Positions 41,547 through 46,982 of a stretch of 64,000 nucleotides of DNA are shown here, piece after piece (the first letter of the stretch is position 1; each line of letters opens with the position of its first letter). The notes beneath the pieces are model-generated. The model saw only the letters and a list, made by a program, of their open reading frames with translations, was not told the DNA's origin and did not search any database. The stretch lies in contig NZ_JAINVZ010000011.1 in assembly GCF_019890615.1 (NCBI RefSeq), forward strand, positions 62,001 through 126,000, read 5' to 3'. This DNA is from Streptantibioticus parmotrematis (GTDB lineage: Bacteria > Actinomycetota > Actinomycetes > Streptomycetales > Streptomycetaceae). The position numbers were made by a program, and so were the translations under genes.

Positions 41547-42716
41547 TCACAGCGACCAGTGGGCGCCCGGCCCGTCGAGCCACGCCAGTGCACCGCCTGC
41601 GGTGACGGTGAGGCCGAACCGGTCGATGTCCGGAGAGCCCTGGGCCCGCCACCACGCGTAGGCGGTCTCCACCTCGTCCCAGAGACGGCGCCCACCAGCC
41701 TGGTACGCCTTCGTGACCGCTTGGCCGGGCTCGTACAGCGCGGCTGCCCACGACCTGTCCGTGAGGCTGTACAGCCACACATTCCGGGCGCCGTCACGGA
41801 CGGCCGTCATCAGCTCGCAACCCGGCACACGCAACCCCGCGGCGAACTCGAACGACCCGAACCGCTCGAACGCATCCGCGGGCAACCGCGTCTCCGAGGC
41901 GTCAGCGCCCCCGGGCCAGCCGTCCGGCAGATACTCCTCATGCCCTGGCCGCGTCACCCGCCGCCCGCGGTCCTTCATGAACTCGACCAGCCGCAAGAAC
42001 CGGCCCGACGCCGCCCGGCCGTCGCCGTCCACGCGGAGCTCGACCACGACGTCGCGGTGGGTGAAGTGCGTGCCCCACGGGGCCACGATCACGCCGCCGG
42101 GCCGTACCTGCCGCACCCAGGCACGCGGGAAGTCGCGGACACCGAACGTGGCGATCAGCCGGTCGAAAGGTGCGGCCCCCGGCCGGCCCGCGCACCCGTC
42201 GCCTTCCCTCACGCCGACGCGAAGCCCGTTGCGGTCGAGGGCGCCCCTGGCGGTTTCGGCGACCCGCGGGTCGATCTCCACGGTCACCACGTTCGCCACG
42301 CCCACCCGGTGAGCGAGCAGGGCGGCGTTCCAGCCTGTGCCGGTGCCGATCTCCAACACGCGCATGCCGTCAGCGAGGTCGAGGTCATCCAGCATGCGGA
42401 ACACCACGGATGGCGCGGAGCACGATGACGTCGGCACGGTGCCCGGCTGGTCGTCGTGGCGGCCGTCGTCCCACTGGGTGGTGATCGGTTCGTCGCTGTC
42501 GGCGTGCTCGTACCAGGCATCTGGATCGGTCGTCTTGTCCACGCGGACGCTGGTCCCGTCGGCCATGCGGTGCGGCCACATCACGGTGGGCAGGAAGTCG
42601 GCACGGTCCACGGTCTCGAACGCTGCTTCCCAGTCGGGGGTCAGGGCGCCCTTGTCGCGGAGCGAGCGGCCCAGCTCCCTCCGGGTGGGCCGCTCCTTGC
42701 CCGTACCGATGGTCAC
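41547..42716 (-). CDS. Isoaspartyl O-methyltransferase homologue of RiPP type
   Basis: 389 residues. The N-terminal half is PIMT-like: AAFETVDRADFLPTVMWPHR, motif I VLEIGTGTGWNAALLAHRVG, VVTVEIDP, FDRLIATFGVRDFPRAWVRQ and RPGGVIVAPWG. Canonical PIMT repair enzymes have about 215 residues; the extra 170-residue C-terminal part is the hallmark of PIMT homologues that modify Asp in ribosomal peptides. GTG 42716 overlaps the stop of a 42-residue peptide gene by 4 bp. A role in making aspartimide or isoaspartate in that peptide is inferred. Confidence 0.78.
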   Translation of the reverse strand: MTIGTGKERPTRRELGRSLRDKGALTPDWEAAFETVDRADFLPTVMWPHRMADGTSVRVDKTTDPDAWYEHADSDEPITTQWDDGRHDDQPGTVPTSSCSAPSVVFRMLDDLDLADGMRVLEIGTGTGWNAALLAHRVGVANVVTVEIDPRVAETARGALDRNGLRVGVREGDGCAGRPGAAPFDRLIATFGVRDFPRAWVRQVRPGGVIVAPWGTHFTHRDVVVELRVDGDGRAASGRFLRLVEFMKDRGRRVTRPGHEEYLPDGWPGGADASETRLPADAFERFGSFEFAAGLRVPGCELMTAVRDGARNVWLYSLTDRSWAAALYEPGQAVTKAYQAGGRRLWDEVETAYAWWRAQGSPDIDRFGLTVTAGGALAWLDGPGAHWSL

Positions 42717-42841
42717 TTGCGGTGCTTCCCGTCGCCGTCAGGGGTCGGCCCGTCAGGAGAGGGCGGCGTCGGCGGCAGTGGCCACGGCCGGCCGGGCAGC
42801 TTGTCGTCGTCGCCTCCGTACACGACCGGTTCGATCCTCAT
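42713..42841 (-). CDS. Candidate RiPP precursor peptide (42 residues)
   Basis: ATG 42841 has a strong GAAGGAG 6 bases upstream. The peptide begins MRIEPVVYGGDDDKLPG and ends with a Pro/Asp-rich segment PSPDGPTPDGDGKHRK that contains three Asp-Gly pairs, the dipeptide most prone to aspartimide formation. The gene ends 4 bp inside the methyltransferase start. It is in frame with, and could instead be the C terminus of, the recombinase-like reading frame upstream. Confidence 0.5.
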   Translation of the reverse strand: MRIEPVVYGGDDDKLPGRPWPLPPTPPSPDGPTPDGDGKHRK

Positions 42842-43360
42842 CGTGATCTCCTTCGGTTGGTAGGTGCCGTGTGGGGCCGACCCAGGTGACGGGCAGGCCG
42901 GTGCGCCGGCGGCCGAGCCGGCAACGGCCTGACGCCCACACGGCGGCGCCCATGGCGTGATGGGGGCGTGGTTGAGGCGGGCGCGCTCGATCCAGGACCC
43001 GTCAGCGCGGCGCCGCTCGCCGAGCGTCGTCTCCACCCAGGCGCCCAGGAGCAGGACGCGGCGGGTCAGCAGGCCGCAGGCGTGGCCGTCGCGGGAGAGG
43101 CGGTCCCAGTCGTGGACGAGGACGACGCGCTGGACTCCGGCCCCGGCGGCGTGGACGTTGCGCAGCATCGCGTCGAACGCGGCACGCCGGTCATCGCTGA
43201 GGGCGTCGTCGCCGACGTCCAGCCAACGGCCGCCGTCTGTCCAGCCTTTCGCCTCCAGGTACGCGGTGCAGGCGTCCATGCGGGCCTGCAACATACCGGT
43301 GGCCTGAGTGACGTGCCGGTCGTAGACGAACGCCAGAGGGGGCTGCCGCGTGTTCAGCAT
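42713..43360 (-). CDS. Serine-recombinase N-terminal-domain-like protein
   Basis: Up to 215 residues. FVYDRHVTQATGMLQARMDA, ACTAYLEAKGW, DDRRAAFDAMLRNV and VLVHDWDRLSRDGHACGLLT resemble the resolvase/invertase catalytic domain, including the Arg of the DRLSRD motif, but the catalytic Ser near the N terminus is replaced in this segment and no DNA-binding or large recombinase domain follows. Function is probably not recombination. ATG 43360 overlaps the upstream small gene by 7 bp. The frame stays open through the candidate peptide gene; the true 3' end is uncertain. Confidence 0.55.
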   Translation of the reverse strand: MLNTRQPPLAFVYDRHVTQATGMLQARMDACTAYLEAKGWTDGGRWLDVGDDALSDDRRAAFDAMLRNVHAAGAGVQRVVLVHDWDRLSRDGHACGLLTRRVLLLGAWVETTLGERRRADGSWIERARLNHAPITPWAPPCGRQAVAGSAAGAPACPSPGSAPHGTYQPKEITMRIEPVVYGGDDDKLPGRPWPLPPTPPSPDGPTPDGDGKHRK

Positions 43361-43584
43361 GTGGCGCTCCCCGCGAGGCTTCCACGCAGTGCGGTGGCCA
43401 GCCGCATGGCTACGTCCGCGCGGACGCGTCCCAACTCCACCAGGGCGAGGTCCGGCGACGCGATGTCGGCCCTCAGCGAGGGCAGAACGATCTCCGCATC
43501 ATCGAGTGCCACCTTCAATGCCTCTACCGCGACGTTGGGGTCGATGTCCGGTGCCCGGCAGCTGTCTGTGTTCCTGGTGCCCAT
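43354..43584 (-). CDS. Small protein, first gene of the RiPP-like operon
   Basis: 76 residues, helical and acidic: DPNVAVEALKVALDDAEIVL, SLRADIASPDLALVELGRVR, ADVAMRLATALRGSL. No family recognised. Its stop overlaps the next start in ATGCTGA. The promoter is shared with the divergent DUF6879 gene. Confidence 0.6.
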   Translation of the reverse strand: MGTRNTDSCRAPDIDPNVAVEALKVALDDAEIVLPSLRADIASPDLALVELGRVRADVAMRLATALRGSLAGSATC

Positions 43585-43602
43585 GACCTGGACGCTAGGA
43601 GC

Positions 43603-43674
43603 GAGGAACGGTAGACCGCCAGGGAAGTTCCTCGAAGTTGCTTGAGTGCTCAGCGAAGTTGCGGGATGTTCCTC
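43603..43674. promoter_or_regulatory. GAGGAAC/GTTCCTC and GAAGTTG repeats in a divergent promoter
   Basis: GAGGAAC at 43603, GTTCCTC at 43627 and again at 43668, and GAAGTTG at 43634 and 43655 lie between the two divergent starts (43584 and 43757). The inverted and direct copies suggest an operator for one of the nearby XRE regulators. Confidence 0.45.
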
Positions 43675-43756
43675 AAGAAGGTCTGCAAAGCTCTCTCCGC
43701 GGAGCCTCGGCCCCGCAGAGACTTGGCAGATCAGTCCCCTAAGGAAGGAACTGGTC

Positions 43757-44512
43757 ATGCCACGAAGGCTGCGCTTCAACGGCACTGGCAGCGGCGATAC
43801 CGGATGCCCCGCGGTACACGAAGACCTCGACACGCACGAAGTGATCGTGCACGGTCCGCCGCTCACCGACCCCGACGACCTCGCGCGGCTTCAGCACCTG
43901 GGCCCTGGTGAGGTACCGATCGTGGTGCCGCGGGAACTTCTCGTCGACTGGGGGCCGAAGGACCTGACGCGCAAAGCAAAGGTCGTTGACCTGGACGCGT
44001 TCAACAGCCTCTTCGAGACGTTCGATCATTCGGCTTGGCGACTGGAAACCCGGCGCCGCTACGCCTCCGACGAGGCCACGGACACCTACGCCCAGTTCGC
44101 CGAATCGGGTGCCGTTGCTTGGGACATGGACTCTTGGTACTGCCGCACGATCCGGACCCAGGTCGCGGCGGGCAAGTCCGTCGGCCGCGTGCGCATCGTC
44201 GACAACCCTCCGACGGTCGGCCAGCGCTACCTCATGGCCAACGCGCAGCGCAACGCCGAACTCGGCGAGGACGTGCGGAACCTGTGGCGCGAGGACGCGG
44301 AACAGCTGCCGCTCGGGACCGAAGACTTCTGGATCTTTGACTCCCGTCTCGTCGCGCTGCTGAACTTCGACGACGCCGACAGCCTGGTCAACGTCGAACT
44401 CATCACGGAGCCGGCCGAAGTCGTCCGATACTCCGTCCTGCGCGACGCCGCAGTGCATCACGCCATCCCTCACGAGCGCTTCGCGGCCCTGCTGCCCGTG
44501 AAGAAGGAGTAG
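43757..44512 (+). CDS. DUF6879 family protein
   Basis: 251 residues. After an N-terminal section (CPAVHEDLDTHEVIVHGPPL, GEVPIVVPRELLVDWG) the DUF6879 core begins: LFETFDHSAWRLETRRRYAS, AGKSVGRVRIVDNPPTVGQR, LPLGTEDFWIFDSRLVALLN and AAVHHAIPHERFAAL. DUF6879 proteins sit beside XRE regulators in Streptomyces; their activity is unknown. ATG follows AAGGAAGGAA. The XRE gene starts 15 bp downstream. The N-terminal section may be a separate small domain fused here. Confidence 0.75.
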   Translation: MPRRLRFNGTGSGDTGCPAVHEDLDTHEVIVHGPPLTDPDDLARLQHLGPGEVPIVVPRELLVDWGPKDLTRKAKVVDLDAFNSLFETFDHSAWRLETRRRYASDEATDTYAQFAESGAVAWDMDSWYCRTIRTQVAAGKSVGRVRIVDNPPTVGQRYLMANAQRNAELGEDVRNLWREDAEQLPLGTEDFWIFDSRLVALLNFDDADSLVNVELITEPAEVVRYSVLRDAAVHHAIPHERFAALLPVKKE

Positions 44513-44527
44513 GCAGGTGAAGTACCG

Positions 44528-45388
44528 GTGAGCACGGACTACCGGAAGGCACGCGAAGACCTCGGCGTTCGACTCCGAGAGCTGCGGCTGTGGGCACCCG
44601 GTGGACGGCTCACCGGTACGCAGCTCGCCGACCGGTGCGGCTGGCACAAGACCAAGGTCAGCAAGCTGGAGAACGGCCTGCAGACGGCCACGCCCGAAGA
44701 CTTGAAGCTGTGGGCGGAAGCCACCGGACAGCCAGAGGCGTATGACGAACTACTCGCCAGGTTACGGGGGTTCGAATCTCATGTGCGATCGTGGCGGCGC
44801 CAACTCGCGGCCGGCCACGAACCGGTACAGCGGACCATTGCCGCCGAGTACGCTCGGTCCGCTGTGATCCACGGATTCGAGAGTGCCACGATCCCCGGCA
44901 TCCTGCAGAACCCGGACTACGCCCGGTCGATCTTCCGGCGTTACGCAGAACTGCAACGCTCCAAGCAGGACACCGAAGAGGCCGTGCGCGCCCGCATGCA
45001 GCGACAGGAAATGCTCTACACATCGCACAAGCGGTTCCGCATCATCGTCGGTCACGCCGCTCTGCGCGCGCTCATCTGCCCGCCCTCTGTGCTGGGCGCC
45101 CAGCTGAACCGGCTTGACGGATTCATCGGCACGGACACTGTGCAGTTGGGCGTCATTCCGCCGGACGCCTCACTCAAACTGCCTCCAACCGGTGGGTTTT
45201 GGATTCATGACGAGCGCCTGGTCACCGTCGAGACATGGCATGCAGAGCTGTGGATCGATGACGCGGACAGCATCGCTACCTACCTGCGTGTCTGGAAGAC
45301 CCTGCAAGAGTCCGCCGTCTACGGGAACGATGCTCACAACGTGATCAACGCGGCGCGGCGCGCGCTGGGCCTGCGAGAGGGGGCCTGA
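44528..45388 (+). CDS. XRE-family regulator with DUF5753-type C terminus
   Basis: 286 residues. Helix-turn-helix at about 10-65: LGVRLRELRLWAPGGRLTGT, DRCGWHKTKVSKLENG. The rest matches the Scr1/DUF5753 pattern: IPGILQNPDYARSIFRRYAE, ARMQRQEMLYTS, HAALRALICPPSVLGAQLNR and TVETWHAELWIDD. Such regulators pair with small DUF397 or similar proteins and control development or clusters. Operon with the DUF6879 gene. Confidence 0.88.
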   Translation: MSTDYRKAREDLGVRLRELRLWAPGGRLTGTQLADRCGWHKTKVSKLENGLQTATPEDLKLWAEATGQPEAYDELLARLRGFESHVRSWRRQLAAGHEPVQRTIAAEYARSAVIHGFESATIPGILQNPDYARSIFRRYAELQRSKQDTEEAVRARMQRQEMLYTSHKRFRIIVGHAALRALICPPSVLGAQLNRLDGFIGTDTVQLGVIPPDASLKLPPTGGFWIHDERLVTVETWHAELWIDDADSIATYLRVWKTLQESAVYGNDAHNVINAARRALGLREGA

Positions 45389-45710: not shown

Positions 45711-45923
45711 CTAAGCGGCGCCTATCTCCCCGCGCTTCACCGCGCCCGTGAACGACGCCCAAGCGGCCGGGGAGAAGGCCAGGGCCGGACCGTGCGGGTC
45801 CTTGCTGTCACGGACGGGAACGACACCCGACAGGCCCATCCCCATCTCCACACAGTCACCGCCGTTCGGGCCACTGTGACTGCTCTTGCGCCACGTCACG
45901 GGCAAATCACTTGCTCTGCTCAT
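45711..45923 (-). CDS. DUF397 domain protein (copy 2)
   Basis: 70 residues. LPVTWRKSSHSGPNGGDCVE, VPVRDSKDPHGPALAFSPAA and WASFTGAVKRG are the full DUF397 pattern. It is a near-identical tandem copy of the gene at 45956-46168 (period 245 bp, about 95 percent identical including the upstream CATGGCTGAGTCCTTCCAG). DUF397 proteins antagonise or modulate their partner XRE regulators. Confidence 0.9.
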   Translation of the reverse strand: MSRASDLPVTWRKSSHSGPNGGDCVEMGMGLSGVVPVRDSKDPHGPALAFSPAAWASFTGAVKRGEIGAA

Positions 45924-45955
45924 GGCTGAGTCCTTCCAGACGGACACGGATCGGG

Positions 45956-46168
45956 CTAGACGGCGCCGAGTTCCCCGCGCTTCACCGCGTTCGTGAACGA
46001 CGCCCAAGCGGCCGGGGAGAAGGCCAGGGCCGGACCGTGCGGGTCCTTGCTGTCACGAACGGGAACGACACCGGACAGGCCCGTCCCCATCTCGACGCAG
46101 TTACCGCCGTTCGGGCCACTGTGACTGCTCTTGTGCCACGTCACGGGCAAATCACTTGCTCTGCTCAT
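45956..46168 (-). CDS. DUF397 domain protein (copy 1)
   Basis: 70 residues: LPVTWHKSSHSGPNGGNCVE, VPVRDSKDPHGPALAFSPAA, WASFTNAVKRGELGAV. Its ATG lies 17 bp inside the end of the XRE gene, so translation is coupled. Together with copy 2 it forms the usual regulator-DUF397 module. Confidence 0.92.
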   Translation of the reverse strand: MSRASDLPVTWHKSSHSGPNGGNCVEMGTGLSGVVPVRDSKDPHGPALAFSPAAWASFTNAVKRGELGAV

Positions 46169-46982
46169 GGCTGAGTCCTTCCAGGTGCTCGCGGATCAAG
46201 TCGGCTGACGCCTCAGGCGATTTGGCGACGGCCCTCAACAGATCATAGGTTCGAGCGCCTTCGACCACTTCCTGCGCGTCCAGCGCCGCCCGGCCCTGCG
46301 AGAAGCCGTCCACCCACAGGACGTCCGCGCCTTCCGCGAAGCTCATCATGCTGAACGGCCCGTTCAGTCCCGGATGCGCGGCACGCTTTTTCTCGATCAA
46401 CTGGATGACTGTACGAGGGTGTTGGCCTGCTTCGAGGAGCCTCTCAAGCTGCGCGCGCATGACCGCCGGGCCTCCGATGCGGCGTTCGAGAACGTACTCG
46501 TCGATCACGAACCACGTGCGCGGACGGTCCTCGCGCGTGAGGATGTCCTGCCGGGTCATCCGGGCCGCGACGAGATCGTCCAGGTTGTCCGGTCGTACGA
46601 CGCTGAGCACGGCCCGCGCGTACCCCTCCGTCTGGAGCAGACCCGGAATGACCTGGCCCTCAAAAGACCGGATGGACGTGGCTGCCCGCTCAAGCTCCAC
46701 ATACGGCAGGAACCAGCCCGGGTACGCGTAGCGGATCACCAGCGGGAGGAGCCTCCCGAAGTGGCCGTCCGTGTCGAACGCGAGGTCCAGGTCCCTGGCC
46801 AGGTCGGCCGACGGAACGCGCTCGCCGGACTCGATGTAGCTGACCATGGCCTGCGTGGTGTGCGCCGCCTTGGCCGTCTTCGACTGCGACCAGCCCGCCT
46901 TGTTGCGGACGCGTTGTAACTCGGTGCCGAAGAACGCCAGCAACGACGGCGCCGTCTGTAGATCTTTGGCCTCAACTGTCAT
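46152..46982 (-). CDS. XRE-family regulator with DUF5753-type C terminus
   Basis: 276 residues. Helix-turn-helix: LQRVRNKAGWSQSKTAKAAH, TTQAMVSYIESGERVPS. C-terminal part: FEGQVIPGLLQTEGYARAVL, VAARMTRQDIL, YVLERRIGGPAVMRAQLERL, NGPFSMMSFAEGADVLWVDG. Partner of the two DUF397 genes. A palindrome 17 bases upstream of the start is a likely autoregulatory site. Confidence 0.9.
   Translation of the reverse strand: MTVEAKDLQTAPSLLAFFGTELQRVRNKAGWSQSKTAKAAHTTQAMVSYIESGERVPSADLARDLDLAFDTDGHFGRLLPLVIRYAYPGWFLPYVELERAATSIRSFEGQVIPGLLQTEGYARAVLSVVRPDNLDDLVAARMTRQDILTREDRPRTWFVIDEYVLERRIGGPAVMRAQLERLLEAGQHPRTVIQLIEKKRAAHPGLNGPFSMMSFAEGADVLWVDGFSQGRAALDAQEVVEGARTYDLLRAVAKSPEASADLIREHLEGLSHEQSK

Follow-up and report, generated by a model that had tools for sequence, protein, structure and literature searches.

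The stretch of Streptantibioticus parmotrematis DNA analyzed here (contig NZ_JAINVZ010000011.1, positions 62,001 to 126,000; called the window, at its full 64,000 nucleotides) carries a minus-strand gene pair that encodes a 42-residue peptide and an aspartyl O-methyltransferase (PAMT) of the protein isoaspartyl methyltransferase (PIMT) type. The best explanation overall, which we hold to be highly probable, is that the pair is a type I pamtide/imiditide locus of known kind whose expression would be controlled by an adjacent DUF6879 protein and an adjacent XRE-DUF5753 regulator. Type I pamtides/imiditides belong to the ribosomally synthesized and post-translationally modified peptides (RiPPs) and come from two-gene loci, of which 1,414 have been counted (PMC10787088; PMC13001092). 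A 2026 review (PMC13001092) sees the linking of aspartimidylated RiPPs to a biological function as the field's bigger challenge. The sequence-only reading of this DNA had proposed a minimal RiPP locus, an imiditide-like peptide with its PIMT, and the proposal was right in substance: homologous loci have the small frame, the frame is conserved, and the enzyme groups apart from a repair PIMT. The locus itself is ordinary in kind; the interesting part is its regulator surroundings.

The precursor gene encodes MRIEPVVYGGDDDKLPGRPWPLPPTPPSPDGPTPDGDGKHRK. The open reading frame (ORF) has, as had been read from the letters, an excellent ribosome site, with a GAAGGAG 6 nt ahead of its ATG (42841), and it overlaps the start of the 389-residue methyltransferase by 4 bp, the precursor TGA and the methyltransferase GTG sharing nucleotides 42713-42716. 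The peptide is rich in proline (26.2%), glycine (14.3%) and aspartate (14.3%) and contains no cysteine. An acidic stretch (GGDDD) lies towards the N terminus, the core is rich in Pro and Gly, and the tail (KHRK) is basic. The sequence-only reading had judged it unlike known graspetide or lanthipeptide leaders; among type I pamtides it is not unusual, its length and its richness in Gly, Pro and Asp being normal for them in the accessible text of PMC10787088. The precursor belongs to no family in Pfam or NCBIfam, five further precursors from other loci belong to none in NCBIfam, and a scan for promoters and terminators gave no signal exceeding that of shuffled sequences. Compared with its counterpart at a sister locus (recovered twice, as L009 and L064), the precursor differs by four synonymous and two non-synonymous codons.

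The published type I pairs SpaA-SpaM and NmaA-NmaM share with the window pair the two-gene arrangement, a Gly/Pro/Asp-rich precursor of about 45 residues, a conserved Asp beside Pro/Gly, an acidic N terminus and basic C terminus, and a PAMT with a C-terminal extension of more than 100 residues and a WxxxGxP motif (PMC10787088; PMC13001092, partial texts). The window family differs from SpaA and NmaA in its core, LPGxPW..PSPDG..GDGKHRK, and in the regulator genes nearby. Type II pamtides/cysimiditides likewise consist of a PAMT-precursor pair, but they are defined by two CxxCxGxG motifs, which the window peptide lacks because it has no cysteine at all.

For the comparison of loci we took 80 regions, each spanning at most 19 kb around a high-scoring methyltransferase homologue; 82 enzymes with scores of 300 bits or more lie in these regions and the window. 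The regions come from the upper end of the hits of a family search, minus identical copies and some weaker matches, and do not sample pamtide loci at random. The precursor profile was built from 29 seed peptides, selected from overlapping loci by the presence of [ST]PDG and P[WY], with 14 bits as acceptance level, and 40 regions from the same genomes served as controls. A homologous small ORF on the same strand, ending beside the enzyme start, was found by the profile in 72 of the 82 loci, the window included; the best score in the control regions was 12.0 bits. Ten loci fell outside the profile acceptance. By inspection, seven of these hold variant candidates: a PSPD[ST] form in four and a GGGGSDEGGN form in three. 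The small ORF is therefore not due to chance, since a homologous frame stands in 72 of the 82 loci. In the P-x-P-D-G motif, which 70 loci have, all four synonymous codons are in use for Pro and likewise for Gly, and the conservation is thus at the protein and not the DNA level.

The 72 precursors have 68 distinct C-termini (L107, for example, equals L105), and these single out one residue. The sequence-only reading had pointed to three Asp-Gly pairs and named a conserved DG-rich C terminus as what would support the call. All three pairs are present, but only the first is nearly invariant: Asp30, in P-x-P-D-G, is kept in 67 of the 68, whereas Asp stands at position 35 (second pair) in six and at position 37 (third pair) in 54. 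On these counts Asp30 is the predicted modification site. The H-R-K residues of the tail are found in 56, 58 and 48 of the 68, respectively, and by analogy with the last five residues of SpaA (PMC13001092, partial text) the basic tail is a predicted handle for the enzyme. Another type of precursor (MGxHGDGKGGAEGDK...ESDGQW..) stands ahead of more distant PAMTs at L004/L186 and L026.

The methyltransferase matches Pfam PCMT with 98.2 bits and carries the motifs EIGTGTG and WRAQGSP, the latter conforming to WxxxGxP; among the 82 homologues an exact E[IVL]GxGxG is found in 48 and an exact WxxxGxP in 67. In a predicted structure (predicted local distance difference test score 90.1) a PIMT fold is joined to a C-terminal domain, and among solved structures in the PDB, 1dl5 gives the best E-value; this is the PIMT of T. 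maritima, which also has a C-terminal domain. Model and match together bear out the C-terminal extension, as in RiPP-modifying PIMTs, that had been suspected from the sequence. A quick tree was built from 111 rows, with E. coli Pcm among them and the characterized PAMTs SpaM and NmaM not. In it the window enzyme and its sister lie inside a 79-row clade (SH-aLRT 99) that stands apart from E. coli Pcm, and apart also from an enzyme of the window's genome whose gene is some 1 kb away from a LANC_like gene; the deep order of the tree is unsure, with long branches. An ordinary repair function for this PIMT, with the small ORF present incidentally, is in our view scarcely credible. The catalytic half does match PCMT and solved repair enzymes, but the extra C-terminal domain, the placement apart from Pcm (across long branches), the precursor frame conserved in most loci and the ten matches to the enzyme within the same genome all argue against this explanation, and we rejected it. 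In a separate PADLOC search with six proteins, the methyltransferase domain resembled mad2 (73.7 bits, partial match) and the two XRE proteins matched weak HTH models only; neither was taken as a sign of a defense role.

The window lies on a 231-kb contig (C3) of a 7.4-Mb genome, for which the nearest relative found was Streptomyces sp. ICBB 8177. Of the four maturase families searched (TIGR04187 ATP-grasp, LANC_like, YcaO and Asn_synthase) none has a match on C3, and all matches in the genome lie elsewhere. Graspetide cores carry Thr/Ser and Asp/Glu series. The peptide could in principle be a graspetide or other RiPP on which the PAMT acts secondarily, its primary maturase being encoded elsewhere. 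The family that the enzyme matches best in NCBIfam, TIGR04188, is named as graspetide-associated, and the genome has four TIGR04187 matches (contigs C1, C4, C10 and C12), three of them adjoining other PAMT homologues. We nevertheless consider this explanation quite improbable and rejected it, because C3 is without TIGR04187 and the core is without a graspetide series; it also has no cysteine. Group 13 graspetides (graspimiditides) share with the window the PAMT and, like group 11, a reported co-occurrence with DUF397 and DUF5753 (PMC13097080, partial text). They differ from the window in that its contig has no TIGR04187 ATP-grasp and a linear peptide is predicted here. DUF5753 regulators have also been described near ATP-grasp loci (PMC8939145, partial text).

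Elsewhere in this genome, contig C4 (L063) carries two more PAMT-precursor pairs whose peptides belong to this family, separated by 4.4 kb. Local profiles found no XRE or DUF6879 gene in the 19-kb region that contains them, and a Pfam DUF5753 match lies just outside that span on C4. A counterpart of these pairs exists in the sister genome (L141:12648-13514, plus strand): there, a second precursor frame scoring 68.5 bits is next to a PAMT match that is shorter and scores 142 bits. In the window's own genome, a PAMT homologue that is interrupted by an internal stop and adjoins a partial ATP-grasp match (G000:C4:82091-83589) is probably a decayed graspetide locus.

A DUF6879 gene and an XRE-DUF5753 gene lie next to the pair and divergent from it (Table 1). 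Such regulators had been noted at the flanks from the sequence, together with DUF397, and DUF6879 and XRE turn out to be recurrent partners. In an unbiased clustering of ORFs of at least 90 residues (81 regions, window included) XRE-DUF5753 proteins occur in 49 regions and DUF6879 proteins in 34, the commonest neighbor clusters after the two strands of the enzyme itself; a further check bore out what these two clusters are. Within 3 kb upstream of the enzyme, XRE-DUF5753 is found in 45, DUF6879 in 32 and DUF397 in 13 of the 80 regions (for L063, which holds two enzymes, the first was used); in 30 of them DUF6879 precedes XRE, with both genes on one strand, and in 10 all upstream XRE genes are on the opposite strand. 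Within 3 kb downstream, XRE or DUF6879 occurs in six of 80. Farther away the genes thin out, with two regions for XRE and two for DUF6879 at 6-9 kb upstream, and none and one, respectively, at 5-8 kb downstream (bins wholly covered in 78 and 75 of the 80 regions). The 40 control regions contained no DUF5753, DUF6879 or DUF397, a result that is weak alone, as about two DUF5753 would be expected in their 0.76 Mb; the 6-9 kb bins and genome densities are better controls. In 25 genomes, hand-picked from those with a PAMT match and adding up to about 214 Mb by their listed sizes, there are 636 DUF5753 and 152 DUF6879 matches, a density that predicts about 0.7 and 0.17, respectively, for 80 stretches of 3 kb (240 kb). 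Each of these 25 genomes has between 1 and 17 copies of DUF6879 (Pfam PF21806).

The association has arisen or lapsed repeatedly. On the deduplicated tree, where 80 rows carry a state, the presence of XRE changed at least 19 times and that of DUF6879 at least 17 times, and the link is therefore not one inherited event. The recurrent order is often a small protein, here called 's', then DUF6879, XRE, sometimes a HATPase, precursor and PAMT. In 21 of 80 regions an 's' gene is found on the enzyme's strand no more than 3 kb upstream, and it stands, in the layouts listed, always just before DUF6879; three 's' proteins compared with Pfam and two with NCBIfam belong to no family. By eye, the N-terminal part of the window DUF6879 protein resembles 's', although the local 's' profile did not match it. 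HATPase matches occur also in four of the 40 control regions, and we do not claim them as specific. One clade of five loci (L067, L069, L073, L076 and L079) has precursors that read GVPNPPK where others read GDGKHRK, and all five have an opposite-strand XRE and DUF397, and no DUF6879, within 3 kb upstream; tail and regulators are not strictly tied, because L095 combines the same regulators with an HRK tail. In the window itself, an XRE-DUF5753 gene (the second one) adjoins a DUF397 gene in a WhiJ/BldB-type pairing; this DUF397 gene is one of two overlapping minus-strand ORFs of closely similar DUF397 sequence that stand in tandem behind the XRE gene (45711-46168).

The arrangement resembles the WhiJ-BldB-AbaA/IosA loci of Streptomyces, in which an XRE regulator also lies beside an output gene, with DUF397 or HATPase_c nearby and direct-repeat operators (PMC10294661, partial text); in the window such operators are candidates. 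In S. venezuelae, WhiJ9 binds direct repeats CGxxCTCAAC and is needed to activate the adjacent iosA (PMC10294661, partial text). The window locus differs from these in that its output is a precursor plus PAMT, DUF6879 and 's' recur, and the repeat sequences are not the same. A direct repeat GSAAC-N5-GSAAC has two copies in the 64 kb; both lie in the divergent region (43585-43756) between the precursor side and the DUF6879 gene, and both are kept in the sister; 0.48 would be expected per window, and at least two anywhere were seen in nine of 100 shuffles. Upstream of the 's' genes, 28 profile hits reduced to 22 with a recognizable start and 21 distinct sequences, the rest being dropped. The 100 bp ahead of the start contain TTGAC in 21 of 21 and the looser-spaced GCAA-N5..7-GCAA in 16 of 21, these 16 all at -37 from the start codon, against means of 0.83 and 0.06 in mononucleotide shuffles; these promoters are related and not independent. 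All operator patterns were picked after looking at the sequences.

The regulator and the peptide are joined in a single protein at one locus. At L081:7859-8977 (plus strand) a complete HTH_31 plus DUF5753 protein continues in frame into a pamtide core, NAPWTPPEPSPDGQSPEGDGQHRK, and a PAMT gene follows directly; no separate start with a ribosome site was found for the tail. In 35 genomes of the genus to which L081 belongs, many paralogues of the fused regulator are listed; the seven loci inspected, including those whose matches reach furthest into the tail, lack the pamtide core. As one case in 80 regions, the fusion may be a recent accident. It bears on the idea that the modified peptide is not exported and instead acts on the XRE-DUF5753 regulator, as ligand or switchable tail, replacing DUF397 or working beside it. 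The linkage in the cassette and the L081 fusion speak for this, as do the 25 commonest neighbor clusters, which by eye include no protease and only one exporter-like cluster (major facilitator superfamily, five regions, about 4 kb away). The single occurrence of the fusion, the absence of the core from the inspected paralogue loci and the regions without regulators speak against it, and we regard such an action on the regulator as possible but doubtful.

Two further genes on the precursor strand, a recombinase-like ORF and one of 76 residues, had been described as co-transcribed with the pair, the smaller encoding a helical protein. Both are present but incidental: a search of the 80 case and 40 control regions, L009-L031 and the window gave three hits each, namely the window, L009 and L064, and since only the window and its sister carry them they lie outside the conserved unit. 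In the window the resolvase-like frame runs into the peptide frame without a stop, giving one ORF of 215 residues (42713-43360). That the peptide is merely the C-terminal tail of a resolvase-like protein would fit this frame, open throughout. However, the peptide has a ribosome site and start of its own, and in the sister the resolvase-like gene ends at its own stop (136 residues) with about 1.47 kb more DNA before the peptide; the continuity is therefore local. With the resolvase-like gene confined to window and sister among the regions searched, a fusion is very improbable, and we rejected it given the peptide's own start and ribosome site and the separate genes in the sister. By eye, the intervening sister DNA contains a transposase-like remnant between the resolvase-like gene and the peptide (L009:2435-3031), and a small ORF at L009:3268-3567 resembles a secreted chaplin-like protein.

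Several results weigh against a type I pamtide locus under the control of its neighbors. On the peptide side, three of the 82 loci (L093, L138 and L139) have no candidate precursor on inspection, and detection favors PDG-type sequences because that motif guided the choice of seeds. In the case regions, two frames that are unrelated and not adjacent score 14.1 and 15.3 bits, while the accepted precursors of L101 and L089 score only 14.3 and 14.4; position thus matters for the weakest calls, since unrelated frames score as high. On the enzyme side, the TIGR04188 match of 298 bits is under the 380-bit cut-off of that family, exact WxxxGxP and E[IVL]GxGxG are missing from 15 and 34 of the 82 homologues, the 1dl5 match is loose over the whole length (TM-scores 0.53/0.64, root mean square deviation 8.2), and the likeness to SpaA and NmaA was judged from published descriptions. 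As for control, none of XRE-DUF5753, DUF6879 and DUF397 lies within 3 kb upstream in 34 of the 80 regions, so that the regulator link is not obligatory, and in the window and the sister the DUF6879 and XRE genes point away from the pair and do not form one operon with it.

Table 1 Features of the pamtide locus and its neighbors, in window coordinates.
Feature	Position	Strand	Basis
Type I pamtide/imiditide precursor, 42 aa	42713..42841	-	ORF and GAAGGAG site; homologous ORFs upstream of related methyltransferases
Precursor ribosome-binding site, GAAGGAG	42848..42854	-	Sequence
Asp30 codon, predicted modified residue in P-S-P-D-G	42752..42754	-	Conservation among 68 distinct C-termini
PAMT, PIMT-type aspartyl O-methyltransferase with C-terminal domain, 389 aa, GTG start	41547..42716	-	Pfam/NCBIfam, motifs, tree, model
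DUF6879 protein	43757..44512	+	Pfam; divergent from pamtide pair
XRE-DUF5753 (WhiJ-type) regulator	44528..45388	+	Pfam
Candidate operator, GSAAC-N5-GSAAC direct repeat	43627..43641	-	Pattern chosen after looking
Candidate operator, GSAAC-N5-GSAAC direct repeat	43658..43672	-	Pattern chosen after looking
Second XRE-DUF5753 regulator (flanking)	46152..46982	-	Pfam
DUF397-like protein (flanking)	45956..46168	-	ORF; likeness to DUF397 neighbor
DUF397 protein (flanking)	45711..46007	-	PF04149
Resolvase N-domain-like ORF	42953..43360	-	PF00239; extent taken from sister; outside conserved unit
Small ORF, 76 aa	43354..43584	-	ORF; outside conserved unit

For the type I pamtide locus we propose the following course, its chemistry modeled on SpaA/SpaM and NmaA/NmaM. 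The PAMT would hold the linear peptide by charge, for which the basic tail would be needed, and would methylate Asp30 of PSPDG; the ester would then close to an aspartimide, which would hydrolyze mostly to isoaspartate. Judging from the neighborhoods, the adjacent DUF6879 and XRE-DUF5753 proteins would control expression, perhaps through the divergent region with its repeats spaced by 10 bp, and the peptide would be the output of a WhiJ-like regulatory cassette. We propose that such pamtides are outputs, and perhaps ligands, of WhiJ-like regulators. A more specific version, which we offer tentatively and think unlikely as it stands, makes pamtides the effector or ligand arm of a cassette of 's', DUF6879, a WhiJ-like XRE-DUF5753 protein and sometimes a HATPase: the regulator would activate precursor and PAMT, and the aspartimide/isoaspartate state of the peptide, or of a fused tail, would report back. 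The main texts of PMC10787088 and PMC13001092, as far as accessible, do not mention regulators, transcription, helix-turn-helix, XRE or DUF397, the original imiditide paper and the supplements being outside this scope. A literature search on DUF6879, DUF5753, DUF397, WhiJ with RiPPs and pamtides, at the level of listings and passages, likewise turned up no pamtide-regulator link, and no paper naming DUF6879.

The recurrent link between type I pamtides and these regulators, which has formed anew or disappeared repeatedly across the tree, is a testable clue to what pamtides do; defined sites for such tests are Asp30, which is nearly invariant, and the one fusion of regulator and pamtide.

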